Positions 43,719 to 54,567 of a stretch of 64,000 bases of DNA are shown here, one piece after another. Source of the stretch: Rhodobacterales bacterium (GTDB lineage: Bacteria; Pseudomonadota; Alphaproteobacteria; Rhodobacterales; Rhodobacteraceae); NCBI GenBank assembly GCA_026400355.1, contig JAPLPE010000013.1, positions 186,001 to 250,000 of the forward strand, given 5' to 3'. How positions within the stretch are numbered: the first letter of the stretch is position 1; each line of letters begins with the position of its first letter. A program made the position numbers and the translations under genes. The notes under the pieces were generated by a model. The model was not told where the DNA came from, did no database searches, and was given only the letters and a program-made list of their open reading frames with translations.

Positions 43719-44486
43719 TTACCCCCGCGCCAGCATCCTGTCGCGCAGATCGCGCAGGAACGGGATCGTCTCGAACTGATCGGGCTGCACGTAATCCCAC
43801 GCCACCCCCTTGGGCCGGGGCGATGTATTGCCCGTAACGATCAGCTCCTTCTCCGTCGCCACATAATCCAATGGCGAGTCATGCGGCATCATGAACACCC
43901 GCCGGCCGTCCACCAGCTGGCTCGAATGCACCGTCGTCGCCATAGGTGTCTCAGTCCCTATGATCCCCAATTCGCGGAAGATCCCCGTCTCAAGGTCCGC
44001 AAAGCCGGCCCCCTTGCCCGTTCGCCCGCCATCCCGGCTTACCGCGACCGAACCCACAATGCAGAAATCCAGCGGCTCGACCTCTTCAAACCCGATCCGC
44101 TCTCCATGCATCATGTAGCCTTCTGATGTGGCCGCGAGTTCGAACGACACCCCCTTCGCCACAATCTTCGCCGGATCAACCCGCAGATAGGGAAACCCCT
44201 CGGTCAGATAGGGCACGGGCGCATAAAGCACCTTGCCCTCGTACAAGGCCCGCAACCGCAACGGAATCTGCGGCGGGTCCGGGTTGCACTTCACCGTCTG
44301 CGCACGTCTCCAGGCCTCAGTCCGCGACAGATGCCAGGCCGCCGTATCGGCCCCGACAAAGTTCGGGATATGGCTCCAGGTCGGGCCCATCGCCATGCCG
44401 CCCTGATCCAGTGCCCCCCAGACGTCAGACCGCACCGCGTCCTTGTTCTCGTCCCGGCCCGCCCAACGCCCCTGCTTCTGATCCAC
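43719..44486 (-). CDS. 5-formyltetrahydrofolate cyclo-ligase-like (MTHFSD-type) protein
   Basis: About 255 residues from GTG 44486, two bases after the ATPase stop. It resembles the MTHFS-domain branch: SHIPNFVGADTAAWHLS, VKCNPDPPQIPLRLRAL, VPYLTEGFPYLRVDP and a C-terminal glycine loop GRTGKGAGFADLE. True 5-formyl-THF cyclo-ligase acts on folate; this longer branch has no proven reaction to my knowledge. Its position at the end of a formamidase-containing operon hints at one-carbon (formyl) handling. That is inference. Confidence 0.8.
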   Translation of the reverse strand: MDQKQGRWAGRDENKDAVRSDVWGALDQGGMAMGPTWSHIPNFVGADTAAWHLSRTEAWRRAQTVKCNPDPPQIPLRLRALYEGKVLYAPVPYLTEGFPYLRVDPAKIVAKGVSFELAATSEGYMMHGERIGFEEVEPLDFCIVGSVAVSRDGGRTGKGAGFADLETGIFRELGIIGTETPMATTVHSSQLVDGRRVFMMPHDSPLDYVATEKELIVTGNTSPRPKGVAWDYVQPDQFETIPFLRDLRDRMLARG

Positions 44487-44488
44487 TC

Positions 44489-46024
44489 TCAATGCCCCGC
44501 CATGTATTTGCCAATCGTGTTCCGGTCCGCCTGGGCAATCGGGGCGATATGGGTGATCCGCCCGCCCGACATGACCGCCACCCGGTCCGACAGTTCCAGA
44601 ATCTCGTCCAGATCCTCGGACACCAGAAGCACCGCCGCCCCCCGGTTCCGCTGGTCGATGATCTGCGCCCGGATCTCCGCGACCGATGCAAAGTCGAGCC
44701 CAAAGCACGGGTTCGCCACGATCAAAACCTTCACATCACCCGAAAGTTCCCGCGCCAGCACGGCCCGCTGCACATTACCGCCCGACAGGTTCTCGATCGG
44801 CGTATCCGGCGACGGGGTCTTGATCCGATAGGTCCCTATCAGTTCCGTCGCCTTGGCCCGCATCGCCGACGGCTTCAGCCACCAGCCCAGCCCGGCCACC
44901 GGCGGCTTGTCAAAACTGCGTAAGGCGATGTTCTCTGCTACCGACATTCGTCGTACCGCCGCGTTGCGCAACGGCTCCTCGGGCAGGCCAAAGACCTTGA
45001 ACTTGTCATAGTCGTTCCGCGTCGCCTCGAACGGCTTGCCGTTGATGAAGATGCGGCCGTCCTTCAGCGGCCTCTGCCCCGACAGCGCTTCGACCAGTTC
45101 CGACTGGCCGTTGCCCGACACGCCCGCAATCCCCACGATCTCGCCACCATGCACCCTCAGGTCCACCGCCTCGACGGCCGGCATCCCTTCGTTGTCGTCC
45201 ACATAGACCGCCGTCAGTTCCAGATGCGTCTTGCTTTTCACATCCGCGACCCGCCCCGCCGATTTGCGGATCACCGTCTCGCCGATCATCATCCGGCTCA
45301 TCTCGTCGATGGTGATTTCGCTCACCTTGCCACCGCCGACCATCTTGCCTCGCCGCAGCACCGACACGGTATCCGAAAAGGCCGTCACTTCGCGGAACTT
45401 GTGGGTGATCATCAGCACGGTGATCTCGCCCCGCTTGGCCATGTCATGTAGCAGGCCCAGAATCTCATCCGCCTCCGCAGGGGTCAGCACCGACGTCGGC
45501 TCGTCCAGGATCAGGAACCGCTGGTCCAGATACAACTGCTTCAGGATCTCCAGCTTCTGCTTTTCCCCCGCCGACAGGGACGACACCGGCACATCCAGCC
45601 GCACCCGGAACGGCATCCGGTCCATGAACGCCTCAAGCGCCTTGATTTCCTTGGCCCAGTTGATGACGACCGGCACATCACTGCGCGAAATCACCATGTT
45701 CTCGGCCGCCGTAAGGCAGGGAACCAAAGTGAAATGCTGATAGACCATCCCGATCCCGGCATCCCGCGCGGCCGACGGCGTGGCAATTGTCTGCTTGACC
45801 CCGTCCACGATCAACGCGCCCTTGGTCGGCTGGTAGAACCCCATGATGCACTTGACGAGCGTCGATTTCCCCGCCCCGTTCTCGCCCAGAAGCGCGTGAA
45901 ACTCACCCGGCTTGATGCTGATCGACACATCGTCGAGCGCCACCAGAGAGCCAAAGATCTTCGTCATCCCCACGGTTTCAAGCGCCAGACCCCGCGCCGC
46001 CGTCAGCGGTGCCACCGTGTTCAT
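44489..46024 (-). CDS. nucleoside/nucleobase-type ABC transporter ATPase (two-domain)
   Basis: A 511-residue fusion of two ATPase domains. The first has Walker [10 protein letters not shown], signature [11 protein letters not shown], Walker [11 protein letters not shown] and switch ITHKF. The second is degenerate: [10 protein letters not shown] in the Walker A position, [15 protein letters not shown] and [10 protein letters not shown]. This layout is that of the ATPases paired with BMP-family binding proteins (for example the NupA and YufO types). ATG 46024 overlaps the amidohydrolase gene by four bases, so enzymes and transporter are translationally linked. Confidence 0.93.
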
Positions 46025-46707
46025 GCGAACGCCTCCAATAGCTGCGCCGACGATGCCACGGCGCCAAAGACGCCGCCCTGCATCTTGACCATGTCCACTG
46101 CCGCCAGATGGTTGGCGTATTTGGTGGCCCCGCAGCCATCCTCGACCAGCAGGCATTCAAACCCCCGGTCATTGGCCTCGCGCATCGTCGTATGCACGCA
46201 GACATCCGTCGTGATCCCCGTCAGAATCAGGTTCCGGATCCCCTTTTGCCGCAGCACAAGCTCCAGATCGGTCGCGCAGAACGACCCTTTCCCCGGCTTG
46301 TCGATCACGATCTCGCCTGGTGCAGGGGCCAGCTCCGGGATGATCTCCCACCCCGGCTCCCCCCGCACGAGGATCCGCCCGCAGGGCCCCGCATCCCCGA
46401 TCCCCGCGCCGATCCGCTGCGACCGCCAGCGCTTGTTCGCGGGCAGGTCCGACAGGTCGGGCCGGTGCCCTTCACGCGTATGGATGACCGGCATTCCCCA
46501 GCCCCGCGCCGCCGCCAGCAAGACGGAAATCGGCCCGATGGGCGCTCGCGTCAGCGACAGGTCATAGCCCATCGCATCCACATATCCGCCGTTGCCGCAG
46601 AAATCCGTCTGCATGTCGATGATGACAAGCGCCGTATTCCCCGTCGCCAAGTCACCGTCAAAGGGCCATTCATAAGGGTCCGCCGCGATCACGCCCAGCT
46701 TTGCCAT
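46021..46707 (-). CDS. isochorismatase-family cysteine amidohydrolase
   Basis: A 228-residue enzyme with the family triad: Asp in [10 protein letters not shown], Lys in IDKPGKGSF and Cys in [11 protein letters not shown]. The pattern ([28 protein letters not shown]) is close to biuret hydrolase, peroxyureidoacrylate amidohydrolase (RutB) and N-carbamoylsarcosine amidase relatives. These split ureido or amide bonds. It starts right after the formamidase stop and overlaps the ATPase gene. Substrate is unknown; a ureide or carbamoyl amide is the best guess. Confidence 0.87.
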
Positions 46708-47727
46708 CTATTCCGCCGCCGTCCGGCTGCTCTGCCCACAAACCCGCTCCGGCGCGGCAAACCCGCAGGATGTGCCGTCCACATGAACGACATCATCCTC
46801 CCACGGCAGGCGATAAGTCCCTGCCACCATGTCCTGCATGAAGGTATAGGGACAGTCCTGCGCCCCGCCCTTCACCGCCACATAGCCACGATGGGCCAAC
46901 TGATAGATGTTGTTCTCCACGCCCCAATGCTTGCGTGCCTCTCGGATCAGGTCGGGCCGCACCTCTGCCGTGATGATCTCATCCGCCCGGCCCGTCACCC
47001 CATGCGCGATCACCGTCCCGTCAAAGTTCACGATCATCGCCTCGCCCATGCTGTCGAACGTCCCGTCCGACCCGGACATGCAGACATTGGCCGTCACCAT
47101 CAGGTTGCAGAAGGCGTTCGACTGGTTCGTGAACCGCCAGCTTTCGCGGATCGGCGCGGTATATCCCGCCGTCCGCAGCATCACCTCGGCCCCCTTGTAG
47201 GCGCTCTCCCGCGCCATTTCGGGGAACATGCCGTCATGGCAGATGATCAGCGCGATCTTCACACCCTTCGGCCCGGTGATGACCGGAATCCCCAGATCAC
47301 CCGGCTCCCATGGCTCGACTGGAACCCAAGGGTGCATCTTGCGATAGTAAAGCTTCACTTCCCCCTGATCGTCGATGATGATCCCGGTGTTCCACGGGTT
47401 CCCATCCGGGTTATATTCCATGATGGAAAAGCAGCCCCAGATGCGATGGTGCCGACAGGCCGCCTTGAACGCCGCGACCTCGGGTCCGTCCATCCGGCAC
47501 ATGATCGCCGGGTTCGTGTCCATCGACAGGCCATGCAGCGCATACTCCGGGAATACGACCAGATCCATCCCTGCCATGTTCCGCCGCGCCTTGCCCACCA
47601 TAGCGACAACCTTCTCGGTCTGCCGCGCCAGATCCTCCGCCGTCACCGTCACGGGCAGTTGCAGCTGCACCATCCCGATCACCACGCCCTCCGGCGATTT
47701 GTTCAGCCCGCCCAGACCGTTCAACAT
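46708..47727 (-). CDS. amiF: formamidase (nitrilase superfamily)
   Basis: About 339 residues, start ATG 47727 (MLNGLGGLNKSPEGVVIGMV), which is the conserved start of AmiF-type formamidases. The Glu-Lys-Cys triad is visible: VVFPEYALHG, KLYYRKMHPW and IALIICHDGMFPE. It hydrolyses formamide to formate and ammonia; aliphatic amidase (AmiE) is a near relative but the length and start fit AmiF. It lies 10 bases after a permease gene and directly before the amidohydrolase. Confidence 0.88.
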   Translation of the reverse strand: MLNGLGGLNKSPEGVVIGMVQLQLPVTVTAEDLARQTEKVVAMVGKARRNMAGMDLVVFPEYALHGLSMDTNPAIMCRMDGPEVAAFKAACRHHRIWGCFSIMEYNPDGNPWNTGIIIDDQGEVKLYYRKMHPWVPVEPWEPGDLGIPVITGPKGVKIALIICHDGMFPEMARESAYKGAEVMLRTAGYTAPIRESWRFTNQSNAFCNLMVTANVCMSGSDGTFDSMGEAMIVNFDGTVIAHGVTGRADEIITAEVRPDLIREARKHWGVENNIYQLAHRGYVAVKGGAQDCPYTFMQDMVAGTYRLPWEDDVVHVDGTSCGFAAPERVCGQSSRTAAE

Positions 47728-47737
47728 GCTGTCCTCC

Positions 47738-48658
47738 TCATTTGACGATCGACAGTTCGCCCGGTGCCACCGCCGCACTGGCCCCCGACCTGGCAGAGGC
47801 GATCATGATGAACAGCGTCAGGATGTAGGGTGCCGCATTGAAGAAATAGTAACCCTGGCTGATCCCCACCGATTGCAGTGCCGGGCCGATCGCCCCCGCC
47901 GCCCCGAAGAGAAGCGCCGCAAGGATACACCGCAGCGGGTTCCACCGCGCAAAGATCACCAGCGCCACAGCCATCAGCCCTTGCCCCGACGAAAGCCCCT
48001 CGTTCCAGCTTCCCGGATAGGACAGCGACAGGAACGCGCCCCCCACCCCCGCCATGAACCCACCCGCCGCCGTGGCAAGGACCCGCACCTTGATCGGATT
48101 GACGCCCATCGCCCGCGCCGAAGGTTCAGAGTCCCCCACCATCCTCAGGATCACCCCGGGCCGCGTATTGGCCAGCATCCACCAGATCACCGCCGCCATG
48201 ATGATCCCCACAAAAAACAACGGGTTGATCTCGAGCGCGGACCGCAGCGCCGGATTGTCCGACCAGTTGCCCAAAGGCAGACTCTCAAGCCGCGGCGCGG
48301 AAGGCTGGATATACGGCTTGCCGAAAAAGAACGCGACACCGATGCCGAAGGTCATCATCGCGATCCCCACGGCAATGTCATTCACACGCGGCAGCGAACA
48401 GATCAGGCCGTGGATCAGCCCCAGAAACACCCCCGAAAACCCCGCGCAAAGTACACCCAGCCACGGCTGCCCTGTCTCGTACGATACCCCGTAGGCCACC
48501 ATCGCCCCAAGGACGAGGTTCCCCTCGAGCCCAAGATTGATCCGCCCCGACTTCTCGGTAATCGTCTCCCCCAGCGCCACGAACATGAAGGGTGTCGACA
48601 CCCGTATCGCCCCGCCCAGCATGGCGATAAGGATTGTGGTCAGCATCCCGGCCGTCAT
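47738..48658 (-). CDS. ABC transporter permease (BMP/nucleoside type), second
   Basis: A 306-residue permease of the branched-chain/nucleoside type with eight or more helices; typical segments are TITEKSGRINLGLEGNLVLG and PGVILRMVGDSEPSARAMG. GINLG-like and NPIKVRVLA motifs are usual for this subfamily. It overlaps the first permease by four bases and leads into the formamidase. Confidence 0.9.
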   Translation of the reverse strand: MTAGMLTTILIAMLGGAIRVSTPFMFVALGETITEKSGRINLGLEGNLVLGAMVAYGVSYETGQPWLGVLCAGFSGVFLGLIHGLICSLPRVNDIAVGIAMMTFGIGVAFFFGKPYIQPSAPRLESLPLGNWSDNPALRSALEINPLFFVGIIMAAVIWWMLANTRPGVILRMVGDSEPSARAMGVNPIKVRVLATAAGGFMAGVGGAFLSLSYPGSWNEGLSSGQGLMAVALVIFARWNPLRCILAALLFGAAGAIGPALQSVGISQGYYFFNAAPYILTLFIMIASARSGASAAVAPGELSIVK

Positions 48659-49752
48659 TTGCCAATCCCCGGCTGAAAGAACCTGATCCGCCCGGTCAGC
48701 GTCTCGCTTGTCAGAAGCACCACAAAGATCAGCCCCTGCAGCACCTGGATCGTCGCATCCGGCAGGTCCATCCGCCGCTGGATCAACCCGCCCGAAGCAT
48801 CAAGCGCCCCGAACAGGATCGCCACGGGCACGATGGCCAGCGGGTTCTGCCGTGCCAGAAACGCCACCAGAATGCCCGTGAACCCGTATCCCGCGACAAG
48901 CGACGCATTGGCTTGCCCGTGGATCGCCGCCACTTCGTAGTAGCCTGCCAGCCCCGCACAGGCCCCCGATATGGCCGCACAGGCCAGGATGAGCTTGCCC
49001 ACCGGCAACCCCTGCGCCAGCGCGGCCCTCGGGTTCCCCCCGGTCACCCGCGCCGCAAAGCCAAAGGTCGTCCGGAACATCAGGAAATACAGCAGCACCG
49101 CCAGAACCAGACCCGCCGCCAGCCCCCAATGCACATCCGTCCCCGGGATCGCGCCCACCTTGTATGCATCGCCGATCGGCACCGTGGACGGCTTGTTGGC
49201 CGAATTGGGATCGCGCAGAATCCCCTCGACAAAGAAATTCATCGTCGCAACTGCGATATAGGTCAAAAGCAGGGACGAAATCGTCTCATTCACCCCCCGC
49301 GCATGGCGCAGCCACCCCGCGATCATCGTAAGCATCGCGCCTGCCGACATGGCGAACACCACCATGATCAGCATGGTCAGCACCACCGGCGCCTCTGCCA
49401 CCACCAGCGGAACAGCAATCGCCGCCGCCGCAAACCCACCCAACACCAATGCTCCCTCGGCCCCGATCATGGTCAGACCGATGGTTGCCGGCACAGCAAA
49501 GGCCAGACCCGTCAGGATCAGCGGCGCGGCCCGCTGCAAGGTGTTCTGGATGGAAAAGAAACTCGAAAACCCACCCTGCCAGATCAGCGCATAGAACGTC
49601 AGGGGGTTCTTGCCCAACGCCAGCAAGAAAACTGAAAACAACAGCGCCGACACAACCAACGCACCCAGCGGAATGGCGATCTTCTCCAGCCCCGCCCGCC
49701 ACCGCACCGTTGAAACGCCAGTGCCGAATGTACCTGTAGTGATATCTGCCAT
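48655..49752 (-). CDS. ABC transporter permease (BMP/nucleoside type), first
   Basis: A 365-residue permease with about nine helices. The conserved segments LTMIGAEGALVLGG, GVNETISSLLLTYIAV and GGNPRAALAQGLP mark this family. The first 25 residues are a soluble lead-in. It begins 91 bases after the binding protein stop and overlaps the second permease. Confidence 0.9.
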   Translation of the reverse strand: MADITTGTFGTGVSTVRWRAGLEKIAIPLGALVVSALLFSVFLLALGKNPLTFYALIWQGGFSSFFSIQNTLQRAAPLILTGLAFAVPATIGLTMIGAEGALVLGGFAAAAIAVPLVVAEAPVVLTMLIMVVFAMSAGAMLTMIAGWLRHARGVNETISSLLLTYIAVATMNFFVEGILRDPNSANKPSTVPIGDAYKVGAIPGTDVHWGLAAGLVLAVLLYFLMFRTTFGFAARVTGGNPRAALAQGLPVGKLILACAAISGACAGLAGYYEVAAIHGQANASLVAGYGFTGILVAFLARQNPLAIVPVAILFGALDASGGLIQRRMDLPDATIQVLQGLIFVVLLTSETLTGRIRFFQPGIGK

Positions 49753-49843
49753 CGGTCCCTCTCGCCCTGTCAGGGACTGTCCGTATATCGTCGAAAACGG
49801 CCAGACCCGGCCGGGGCACAGGCCCCGGCCGTCCCGGGCAACG

Positions 49844-50956
49844 TCAGGTGATCGAACCGATCACGCCTTCCAGCAAATAGTTCATCCCGTCCAGAACCGG
49901 GTCATAGTTGTCCATCGTCCCTTCGATGACGAGGTTGCCCTGATTGTCATTGAGCGGACCGACATAGATCGGCTTGCCTTCCTTCAGCGCCGCCATCGCC
50001 GCGTCGGCCGCCGCGATGGCCTCGGGCGTCGCGCCCGCGCCATAGGGCGAATTCTGCACCATGTCGTTGTGATAGCCGCCGACGACCACGTTGGGCAGAA
50101 TCTCGCCCTTGGCCAGCATGTCGGCGAACATCTGGTAGATCGTCACCCACTTGTACTCGGCCCCGGTGATGAACCCGTTGGGCGCGAGCGGCCCCTGATC
50201 GGCATTGTGGCCGCAGCACTTCACGCCGCGCGATTCCGCAGTCTCGATCACAACCTTGGGCCCGTCCACATGGCAGGTCAGCACATCACAGCCCGCATCG
50301 ACCAGCGCGTTGGCGGCCTCCGCCTCGCGCACCGGCATCGACCATTCGCCGGTAAAGATAACCTGCACGGTCGCCGCCGGATTGACCGACCGCGCGCCCA
50401 GCAGGAACGAGTTGATGTTGGACAGCACCGTCGGGATCGGCTTGGCCGCTACGAACCCCAGCTTGCCCGTGGGCGACGATAGCCCCGCCGCAACCCCGTT
50501 CACAAAATGCGCCTGATTGAGATAGGCGAAATAGCCACCAAGGTTCATCGGCATCGTATCGTTCCAGAGCGGTGCAGCATGGCGGAACTGCACGTCGGGA
50601 TACTTCTTGGCCAGATCGATCATGAACGGATCGAAATAACCGAATGATGTGCCAAGAATCAGGTTCGCCCCGTCCAGATTGATCATCGATTCCATCGATT
50701 GCGTGACGGCATCCGTCTCGGGCACGTTCTCTTCTTCGATCACGGTCACGTTCGGCACTGTCTTCAGCACCTCGATCGCGACAGCCTGCGCCTGATTCCA
50801 GCCAAAGTCGTCCCGCGGGCCGACATAGACCACGCCCAGGATCACCGGGGTCTGGGCCACCGCCCGCGTGGCAAAACCCAGCGGCAAAGTCGCCACGGCA
50901 AATCCGGCCGCTCCCGATTTCAGGATCGAACGGCGGGAAAATCTCGTCTCAAGCAT
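49844..50956 (-). CDS. BMP-family (PnrA-like) substrate-binding protein with Tat signal
   Basis: A 370-residue binding protein; start ATG 50956 gives MLETRFSRRSILKSG, a twin-arginine signal (RRSILK) followed by a hydrophobic stretch and an Ala site (VAQ). The mature part has the BMP pattern: YVGPRDDFGWNQAQ, LILGTSFGYFDPF and GVAAGLSSPTGKLGFV. BMP proteins bind nucleosides, nucleobases or related heterocycles. A Tat route implies folding before export. It is the first gene of the operon running to 43719. Confidence 0.92.
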   Translation of the reverse strand: MLETRFSRRSILKSGAAGFAVATLPLGFATRAVAQTPVILGVVYVGPRDDFGWNQAQAVAIEVLKTVPNVTVIEEENVPETDAVTQSMESMINLDGANLILGTSFGYFDPFMIDLAKKYPDVQFRHAAPLWNDTMPMNLGGYFAYLNQAHFVNGVAAGLSSPTGKLGFVAAKPIPTVLSNINSFLLGARSVNPAATVQVIFTGEWSMPVREAEAANALVDAGCDVLTCHVDGPKVVIETAESRGVKCCGHNADQGPLAPNGFITGAEYKWVTIYQMFADMLAKGEILPNVVVGGYHNDMVQNSPYGAGATPEAIAAADAAMAALKEGKPIYVGPLNDNQGNLVIEGTMDNYDPVLDGMNYLLEGVIGSIT

Positions 50957-52497: not shown

Positions 52498-52815
52498 CTA
52501 GCGCCGCAAGAGAAGCGAGACGAAGATGCCCAGACCAAAGGCCACCAGAAGACTCTGCAATGGCTTCTCATGCACATGCGCCTCAAGCTTTTCCTCAAGC
52601 TTGTCCGTCTCGGCCATGAGACCCCCCATCGCAGCCTTGGCACGCGTGGTTGCCTCATTACCCATCACCCCGGCCGCGGCAGACAGGTCGCTCACGGCAT
52701 CCTTGCCATAGGCCCGCAGGGTTTCGCCCAGCGCCGCGATCTCGGCCTTGAGTTGTGCTACCTGCTCTTCCAGCGTCGGGGCGGCTTCGGCACCCTTGTC
52801 GGATTTCGTGGACAT
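52498..52815 (-). CDS. DUF883/ElaB-YqjD-like protein
   Basis: About 105 residues; start ATG 52815 (MSTKSDKGAEAAPTLEEQ). The soluble helical part (QLKAEIAALGETLRAYGKDAVS) is followed by a C-terminal helix ending GLGIFVSLLLRR, the hallmark of the YqjD/ElaB group. In E. coli such proteins are membrane-anchored and bind ribosomes in stationary phase. This is the likely role here by homology pattern only. Confidence 0.82.
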   Translation of the reverse strand: MSTKSDKGAEAAPTLEEQVAQLKAEIAALGETLRAYGKDAVSDLSAAAGVMGNEATTRAKAAMGGLMAETDKLEEKLEAHVHEKPLQSLLVAFGLGIFVSLLLRR

Positions 52816-52928
52816 GGTGGTTGTCTCCTTCCAATGTGGGACAACGTCGACTGTGGCCCAGTCGGCCCGACAGTTCAACCGCCAAGGCCCGCGGCCAATC
52901 GACCGGACCGCCTTTCAAAGTGCCCGCC

Positions 52929-54567
52929 GTGACCGATCCGGTCCCCGAACCGCCGGCCGACATCGTCATCATCGGCAGCGGCACCGCCGCCGTTGTCGCC
53001 GCTTCGACATTGGTTGAGCGCCTCGGCCGACAAGTCACAGTGATCGAACGCGGCCCAGCCACCATCCTGCCGCTGATGCGCGTCCCCGCCGGATATCTCA
53101 AATCCCCTCGGCAGCCACAAACTCCGTAGAATGCATCAGACTGTTGTCCCCTTCCAACCACCTCGACAGACGCGCCCCTATCGTCCCGGTGTCCGGGGTT
53201 CTGGGCGGCGGCAGCGCCGTCAACGCCATGGTCTACATCCGCAGTCAGCGCGACGACTATGACGGATTGGCCACCGAACAGGGCCTCGGCCCGGACTGGG
53301 GCTATATCGCACTCCTCCCCCATTTCCGTGATCTCGAATCAAACGCGACCCATGGCGATGCCTTTAGGCACCACCGGCCCCGTCCGCATTGGCGATCCCG
53401 GAAGCATCGCCCCCGCCGCCCCTGATTTCATCGCGGCCTGCCAGTCACGTGGCCATCCGCTCAACCCCGATTTCAACGGCCGTACGCAGACCGGGGTCGG
53501 CACCATGCAGCACAGATTGGGTGAACGGCAGGGCTGCCTCCAGCGCAGCCACATGGTCACGGCCATCGTCCGTCCCCTCTCAGGGAACCCCCGCCTCCGC
53601 ATCATCACCGACGCCACTGTCACCCGTATTGCATTTGACCGCCGCCGCGCCACCGCCGTCCACTTCCGCAAGGACGGCCATGACCATCTCCAGCACGCCA
53701 GTCAGGAAATCCTCCCTGGCACCGGCACCTGCAAGACCGCCCGCCTCCTGATGCTTTCTGGTCTCGGCCCCGCCGCTTATCTCCGCGACCACGGCATCCC
53801 CGTCATCGTGGACCTGCAGGGGGTCGGTATCAACCTCCAGGACCACTACGAAGCCCCCGTCATCATGCGCGCCCGCGGCTGCTACGGCTACTTCGACAGG
53901 ATCGCGGCTGGAGGATGGTGACCCACGCGCTCTGCTATGCATTGACCGGCACCGGCCGCGCCACCACCAACGGAATCAAGGCCTGCTTCTTCTTTGGTCC
54001 GATGGGCGGCACGCGCCCCACGATCCAGCTCTACTGCGTCCCCATCGTCTGTCTCGACCGCAATATCACGGACCAACAGGCGACCTTCGGCATGACGCTG
54101 ACCTCCTGCCTCCTGCGGCCCAAGGCGCGCGGCACCGTGCGCTTGCGCAGCGCCGACCCCTTCGACCAGCCCCTCGCGACAGCAATTTCTTCGGCCACCC
54201 CGAGGACATGACCCTCACTCTCGCCGCCCTTCGCGACGCCCGCCACATCCTCGCCGCCCGCCCGCTGGCCGACCATCTGGCCGCCGAGCCCCTGCCAGGC
54301 GCAGATATCCAGCCCGACGCAGACCTTGCCACCTTCGCCAGGAAGACGGTCAAGAACAACAACCACCCCTCCGGCTCTGCCCGCATGGGTCATGAAGGCG
54401 ATCCGAAGGCTGTCCTCGACCGGCAGATGCGCGTGCGTGGCACCGCCGACCTGCGCGTGATCGCCTGCGCCGCTATCCCAGCGATTCCCTCGGCCAAAAC
54501 GAACGCGATTGCGATGGTGCTGGGGCGCAAAGCGGCGATCTATGTGGGCGGGGACACGCAGAACTGA
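52929..54567 (+). pseudogene. GMC oxidoreductase (choline dehydrogenase family), shattered
   Basis: A GTG at 52929 opens a GMC-type flavoprotein (IVIIGSGTAAVVAASTLVE, MRVPAGYLKS). The gene then passes through at least four frames: stop near 53129; GVLGGGSAVNAMVYIRSQ in the frame starting at 53144; GGP-type middle (GVGTMQHRLGERQG, LLMLSGLGPAAYLRDHGIP) in the frame 53259-53921; RPTIQLYCVPI in 53915-54211; and the end with the catalytic His (NNHPSGSARMGHEG) in 54208-54567. Several indels are therefore needed. The gene is dead. It would have acted on an alcohol such as choline or a sugar. Confidence 0.9.

Follow-up and report, generated by a model that had tools for sequence, protein, structure and literature searches.

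The seven-gene operon on the minus strand of a 64,000-nucleotide stretch of Rhodobacterales DNA (contig JAPLPE010000013.1, positions 186,001 to 250,000; hereafter the window, which is a piece of contig C18, in our numbering, of a 4.07 Mb genome) probably serves to scavenge nitrogen from biuret-type acylureas. It encodes an ATP-binding cassette (ABC) importer, a formamidase (AmiF), a biuret hydrolase (BiuH) and a paralogue of 5-formyltetrahydrofolate (5-formyl-THF) cyclo-ligase (5-FCL), here called CLG. Sequence comparisons support the identities of these genes, the conservation of the operon, and two linkages, namely that of formamidase with BiuH and that of CLG with the importer; the importer's ligand, a step from formylurea and the role of CLG are inferred.

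All seven open reading frames (ORFs) run from position 50956 to 43719, and their order and open frames were verified against the ORF list (Table 1). With starts at 47727 for the formamidase and 44486 for the last gene, the intergenic gaps are 91, -4, 10, 0, -4 and 2 bases, 5' to 3' along the operon; the profile searches took slightly longer ORFs for these two genes, to 47745 and 44516. The layout given in a preliminary description of this DNA is thereby borne out, including the placement of formamidase and an isochorismatase-family gene between the permeases and the ATPase, as is its proposal that a cyclo-ligase-like (MTHFSD-type) gene closes the operon, this gene having both a PF01812 match and a GKGxGFADLE-type signature.

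Table 1. Genes of the operon, in order of transcription, with window coordinates
Product	Position	Strand	Evidence
BMP-family substrate-binding protein, Tat-like signal RRSILK	49844..50956	-	PF02608, 121 bits
ABC permease PM2	48655..49752	-	PF02653 (BPD_transp_2)
ABC permease PM1	47738..48658	-	PF02653 (BPD_transp_2)
Formamidase AmiF (CN_hydrolase)	46708..47727	-	NF009803, 566.1 bits (cut-off 406)
Biuret hydrolase BiuH (isochorismatase family)	46021..46707	-	NF050097, 417.6 bits (equivalog cut-off 370)
ABC ATPase, two ABC_tran stretches	44489..46024	-	PF00005; tree
CLG, COG0212-type paralogue of 5-FCL, signature GGRTGKGAGFADLE	43719..44486	-	PF01812, 59.9 bits (cut-off 27)

The isochorismatase-family enzyme is BiuH by its NCBIfam score, its identity to known BiuH, its position in a tree and its active-site residues, and biuret hydrolysis itself is predicted. 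Beyond its score above the equivalog cut-off, the enzyme is 77.4% identical to the BiuH encoded on R. leguminosarum plasmids, its best match among solved structures is R. leguminosarum BiuH (6azo, 393.7 bits; TrtA, 6xix, reaches 220.4 bits), and it falls in the BiuH half of a 58-row tree. At all 13 active-site positions compared, which were chosen from the TrtA paper (PMC7948467), it carries the residues of 6azo (D, F, Y, Y, E, K, K, S, D, C, T, Q and V), and the catalytic Asp, Lys and Cys are kept. TrtA departs from BiuH at six of these positions, and at each of the six the window has the BiuH-type residue. The resemblance to biuret/ureidoacrylate/carbamoyl amidases noted in the preliminary description can be replaced by a named enzyme.

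The adjoining gene encodes a formamidase, with a score above the NF009803 cut-off, and formamide turnover is predicted for it. Residues E60, K132 and C165 of its nearest solved structure, 5g3o, which we take to be the catalytic Glu-Lys-Cys triad, are identical in the window. We sampled 387 alphaproteobacterial genomes, counting both enzymes when they scored above their NCBIfam cut-offs. Formamidase occurs in 12 of them, from several families, and BiuH accompanies it in all 12, apparently in the same operon: the two profile matches are 25-95 bases apart in 10 genomes and lie 6.4 kb apart within one cluster in G388, while in G326 formamidase stands at the end of one contig and BiuH at the end of another, the operon probably having been split by the assembly. 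The Fisher p value for this co-occurrence is 1.8e-14, which is too small because of shared ancestry. Within the Rhodobacterales, five of 244 genomes have a formamidase above the cut-off, each time inside a BiuH operon. The exclusiveness of the tie holds only for matches above the cut-off.

A chemical basis for this linkage would be that BiuH-type cleavage of the terminal amide of an acylurea leaves a carbamate, so that formylurea would yield N-formylcarbamate and, from it, formamide. The tightness of the tie suggests substrates beyond biuret, with formylurea as a candidate. In the triuret hydrolase TrtA, formylurea is the best of the substrates tested after triuret, yet a weak one, with 0.3% of the triuret rate as measured by ammonia release (PMC7948467).

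Two further genomes, G400 and G335, which represent two genera of another family (f97), have the seven genes in exactly this order. The order is therefore not unique to this strain, a point that the preliminary description had left to a conservation search. BiuH above the cut-off is found in 33 of the 387 genomes, and the surrounding stretches were compared for all 33 (G326 over two contigs); as some of them stop at contig ends, absences are upper bounds. Importer genes are present at 30 of the 33 loci (the exceptions being G130, G291 and G360), a TrtA-type second hydrolase at 22, AtzF inside the stretch at 15, formamidase at 12 and CLG at three. Because the order recurs in G400 and G335, and because the importer accompanies BiuH so regularly, the arrangement is not a product of chance.

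The same core is found in longer operons. Plasmid pRL10 of R. leguminosarum A1 has the order GntR, BMP, permease, permease, formamidase, BiuH, AtzD, ATPase and TrtA-type hydrolase, and an Enterobacter IncR plasmid (L080) has AtzF, BMP, permease, permease, formamidase, BiuH, ATPase, TrtA-type hydrolase and GntR. At seven loci, from Hoeflea, Oricola, Phyllobacteriaceae, Rhodobacter and a metagenome-assembled genome (MAG) of the Rhodobacteraceae, a TrtA-type gene stands between the ATPase and CLG, joined at six of the seven by an AtzE-type gene; in Hoeflea NORP7, AtzH is next and AtzF lies beyond on the other strand. One each of the AtzE, AtzH and AtzF of these Hoeflea-type relatives was scored, and all three exceeded their cut-offs. 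In the window, the ATPase and CLG genes abut, and the operon holds no TrtA or other second isochorismatase gene. Since the closest starred group to the window in the ATPase tree consists of three Rhodobacter/Rhodobacteraceae loci that all have the longer version, TrtA and AtzE were most likely lost from the window operon.

Some further features of these loci and of the window were recorded. The Enterobacter operon is flanked by two IS1 genes, and BiuH 80.1% identical to that of the window is present on 19 of the 40 plasmids listed (982 had a match), all 19 being enterobacterial and many coming from patients or wastewater. In R. leguminosarum A1, a 117-codon gene annotated as 'allophanate hydrolase' (L081:12937-13290) matches a small cupin-like gene downstream of the relatives' TrtA, and its annotation is probably wrong. 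A sigma-54 promoter, as reported for pADP-1, was rejected for the window, where 28 loose matches were found against 31 expected, none of them in the leader of the BMP gene. At window positions 52755-53921, peptide stretches that we take to be GMC-oxidoreductase-like lie in separate ORFs, perhaps a broken gene.

The PF02608 binding protein, together with its permeases and ATPase, makes the transporter a BMP/AtzT-type importer, and the nearest solved structures to the binding protein are 3s99 and AtzT (6pi5). The NCBIfam name 'putative B6 ABC transporter' was not adopted, as all four transporter scores in the window are below cut-off (PM2, for example, scores 196.9 bits against permease subunit 2 of that system, where the cut-off is 400). 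The ligand pockets were compared at nine AtzT ligand-site positions taken from PMC6834077. Binding proteins with at most 230 aligned residues were excluded from the count, among them L067 (cut by a contig end) and L111 (in two ORFs); more remote proteins (AtzT, L076, L088, L110 and two G000 paralogues) were displayed but not counted. The L111 gene (L111:3291-4596, genome G686) occupies two overlapping ORFs, which may be due to a frameshift or an error of assembly.

Two pocket types emerge from this comparison. At these positions, the window protein has W, S, F, H, T, N, W, H, D. It is one of 18 with the pattern W S F H T/S N W H D, to which L040 and L169 add Y S F H S N W H D; in the R. leguminosarum/Enterobacter type, 29 proteins share Y S F Q Q N W H D (with E at the fourth place in L163). 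The positions of AtzT T139 and E165 are thus H and T/S in 20 proteins, and Q (one E) and Q in the other 29. CLG is present in 16 of the 20 operons with the H-T/S pocket and in none of the 29 with the Q-Q pocket. In the ATPase tree, the window and the CLG-bearing importers form a clade of 20 rows with support 99/97, in which L040 alone lacks CLG. Pocket type and clade coincide, and therefore reflect one or few events.

CLG is a COG0212-type 5-FCL paralogue by its PF01812 match and its signature of the GKGxGFADLE type, which we take to be the mark of COG0212/MTHFSD proteins. It lacks a signature of the RLGxGGGFYDR kind, presumably the family mark of canonical 5-FCL. Alignment with the canonical 5-FCL that is encoded elsewhere in the window's genome (contig C5) sets RTGKGAGFADLE in the window against RLGYGGGFYDR: FYDR is replaced by FADLE, and the R-x-G-x-G-x-G core is kept. 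Because a sequence search gave no solved relative at E 0.001, the fold of CLG was predicted. The AlphaFold model, with a predicted local distance difference test (pLDDT) score of 87.3, has the 5-FCL/MTHFS fold: its best VIA-align match is a 5-FCL, 2jcb_B (Z 16.4, root-mean-square deviation 3.5, 176 residues), eight of the top nine matches are named 5-FCL or MTHFS, the ninth (1ydm) comes from structural genomics and carries no functional name, and the tenth is a ribose-5-phosphate isomerase with Z 10.5. Arabidopsis At1g76730 is reportedly a thiamin-linked COG0212 paralogue of 5-FCL (Pribat et al. 2011). The COG0212 family has been implicated in thiamin metabolism, and its reaction was given as unknown in papers of 2011 and 2014 (PMC3223725, PMC4120688, in their available parts); a plant member is listed as 'not a 5-FCL enzyme', and it neither replaced 5-FCL nor had detectable activity (PMC3223725).

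The company that CLG keeps was examined at 25 loci with at least 50% identity, the window included, of which 24 can be judged (the L062 contig begins at CLG). An ABC importer gene lies beside or near CLG at all 24: the importer belongs to the window clade at 19 loci, is another BMP importer at two, and has an SBP_bac_8-type binding protein or a TOBE-type ATPase at three. BiuH is beside CLG at 15 of these loci, and none lies within the stretch at the other nine. For COG0212, a family found in plants and prokaryotes, the tie to a single importer clade limits where a function is to be sought, as the substrate should be the cargo of the importer or a product of that cargo.

At 10 loci (L077, L089, L109 and L113-L119), a more distant CLG paralogue (29-36% identical) is accompanied by an RpiR-type regulator and an NMT1/THI5-like importer; L117 holds two copies, and one such locus is in the window's own genome (C40). 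In a Rhodobacter MAG, a marginal Guanidine-II riboswitch match (L065:16970-17018; 32.6 bits, gathering threshold 32) is found some 7 kb beyond CLG.

Together, the gene identities suggest a pathway in which the BMP importer would take up a small planar ureide and BiuH would strip its terminal nitrogen, converting biuret to allophanate and NH3. The allophanate would be finished by AtzF in most of the relatives checked, allophanate hydrolase scoring above cut-off in nine of the 11 BiuH genomes checked (the exceptions being the window's genome and G400) and urease in all 11. In the window's genome, allophanate may instead decay to urea for urease, or another amidase may take it. From formylurea, a BiuH-type reaction would give N-formylcarbamate and, with loss of CO2, formamide, which AmiF would convert to formate and NH3, most likely its role here. 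CLG is probably an ATP-using enzyme tied to the ligand of its own importer. Formamidase and CLG may point to a substrate range wider than biuret. The preliminary description had proposed uptake of a nitrogen-rich heterocycle or ureide and its breakdown to formamide; the import and hydrolysis of a ureide agree with the identity of BiuH, but the breakdown of a heterocycle does not find its enzyme, since the window operon has no ring-opening gene, and AtzD is present only in some relatives.

The window's genome encodes three further isochorismatase-family hydrolases, which lie beside TrtA in the tree, on contigs C10 (L048:3426-9264), C18 (L047:8714-9373) and C16 (L049:7917-8567). FdrA-type genes above cut-off accompany the C10 and C16 genes, a 603-amino-acid protein on C10 fuses carbamate kinase to an allophanate hydrolase C-terminal domain, and C16 has a similar domain match; these are perhaps an oxamate/ureide cluster akin to allFGHK.

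Several observations weigh against the scavenging of biuret-type acylureas as the function of this operon. The 4.07 Mb genome has no AtzF that scores above either of the two cut-offs. A study of BiuH describes the enzyme as highly specific to biuret, and the word 'formyl' does not occur in its available text (PMC5806882); the activity of TrtA on formylurea is weak. Formamidase is absent from 21 of the 33 BiuH loci, a formamidase-like match below the cut-off (305.6 bits) is found in G150, a genome without BiuH above the cut-off, and five more such matches (259-270 bits) are found in the Rhodobacterales, two of which (L154 and L155) were inspected with no BiuH seen. As the pocket differs, the ligand of the window importer may differ from that of the R. 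leguminosarum/Enterobacter importer; the tie between pocket and CLG is itself not strict, as L158 and L166 have the exact pocket of the window and no CLG. CLG is also found apart from BiuH. At four loci (L077, L078, L111 and L112), a LysR gene is followed by CLG and an importer of the window kind, with no BiuH in the stretch; these loci nest inside the biuret-operon clade of the ATPase tree, beside the BiuH- and AtzD-bearing Allorhizobium locus, so that a loss of BiuH, with CLG and the importer retained, is most likely. At one of the four, in Roseicitreum, the LysR-CLG-BMP-permease-permease-ATPase unit without BiuH adjoins a thiamin operon led by a thiamin pyrophosphate (TPP) riboswitch, which lies on the opposite strand, before thiD. 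The Allorhizobium CLG groups with biuret-operon CLGs and its ATPase with thiamin-neighbor importers, a conflict that implies a reshuffling of CLG and importer, and most CLG relatives at 35-42% identity in other alphaproteobacteria (L101-L108, without L109) have no adjoining importer gene detectable by the reference set.

In a different view, the importer clade carries another, larger ligand, such as a thiamin-pyrimidine or nucleobase-type heterocycle, on which CLG acts, while BiuH and AmiF were added to deal with side fragments. The changed pocket residues and their association with CLG, the Roseicitreum neighborhood, the implication of COG0212 in thiamin metabolism (PMC3223725, PMC4120688), and the distant CLG paralogue in that same genome, whose accompanying importer has an NMT1/THI5-like relative in Roseinatronobacter, would all be consistent with it. 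However, a thiamin neighborhood is found at just one of the four loci of the LysR-CLG-importer type, no TPP riboswitch precedes the CLG unit in the 16 loci scanned, the window has no Rfam riboswitch match, and BiuH stays with CLG at most of the judgeable loci; we therefore regard this view as possible but unlikely. A more specific version, that the ligand of the CLG-bearing clade is not biuret itself but a heterocycle with an N-formyl or acylurea group, of the formylaminopyrimidine or 5-azapyrimidine kind, that CLG uses ATP to activate its N-formyl or urea oxygen and so closes or opens a ring, as 5-FCL does on 5-formyl-THF, and that BiuH and formamidase finish the acylurea and formamide fragments, is improbable, although if true it would supply the first reaction for COG0212, called cryptic in 2011, and connect the family with the scavenging of acylurea nitrogen.

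Nor does it seem at all likely that formamidase and CLG are passengers, neutral neighbors inherited with the operon. Their absence from 21 and 30, respectively, of the 33 BiuH loci would fit such a role, but formamidase, with its catalytic residues kept, is accompanied by BiuH in all 12 sampled genomes where it scores above the cut-off, in several families, and CLG of at least 50% identity is accompanied by an importer at every judgeable locus. Least credible of all is the route through folate suggested in the preliminary description, in which CLG would catch released formyl groups on tetrahydrofolate. While the predicted fold and the retained R-x-G-x-G-x-G core are those of a 5-FCL, that enzyme acts on pre-existing 5-formyl-THF and captures neither formate nor formamide. 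Moreover, CLG has FADLE in place of FYDR, a canonical 5-FCL is encoded on C5, the Methylobacterium and Allorhizobium operons have CLG without formamidase, and the COG0212 plant member failed as a 5-FCL (PMC3223725). Scavenging of biuret-type acylureas remains the reading that we prefer.

Biuret and triuret are impurities of urea fertilizer (PMC7700744, PMC7948467), and therefore reach soil bacteria. The preliminary description knew of no described pathway with this gene set, which does not hold for the core: a cyanuric acid pathway that consists of BiuH and AtzD has been described for R. leguminosarum (PMC5806882), the combination of biuH/trtA/atzF and a BMP-type importer (bmpA-nupABC) has been described in nitrifiers (PMC12625717), and the series importer, formamidase, BiuH and ATPase is also that of R. 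leguminosarum and the Enterobacter plasmid. For the seven-gene form with formamidase and CLG, and likewise for the ties of formamidase to BiuH and of CLG to one importer clade, the statement stands, no description having been found among the open-licence papers that the searches listed; neither gene is among those named for the nitrifier and triuret biuH clusters in the available text of PMC7948467 and PMC12625717. Like those clusters, the window combines BiuH with a BMP-type importer, but unlike the TrtA-BiuH-AtzF operons (PMC7948467), its operon has neither TrtA nor AtzF.

As in atzSTUVW of Pseudomonas sp. ADP (PMC6834077), a BMP-type importer stands beside acylurea hydrolases, and the binding proteins are homologous (32% in BLAST). 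That importer is distant, however, with permeases and ATPase 32-37% identical, and E165, N218 and N220 of AtzT are T, H and D in the window. The pADP-1 order LysR, a 260-amino-acid gene (AtzS), BMP, ATPase, permease, permease resembles LysR-CLG-BMP; AtzS was rejected as a cyclo-ligase, since it matches no Pfam family at E 0.001 and BLAST does not match it to CLG. With At1g76730, CLG shares its Pfam family and the lack of a canonical 5-FCL signature, but unlike the plant protein it is part of an acylurea hydrolase operon, and a link to thiamin is a candidate only.

Among the closest known systems is also that of R. leguminosarum. In strain 3841, the authors of PMC5806882 report atzD and BiuH without an atzF nearby, and leave the fate of allophanate open in the available text, and the window likewise has no atzF near BiuH. 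The order BMP, permease, permease, formamidase, BiuH and, further on, ATPase is the same on pRL10 of strain A1, with BiuH about 77% identical. Unlike pRL10, the window operon is without AtzD, the TrtA-type second hydrolase and the GntR regulator, and has instead CLG and a differently built ligand pocket.

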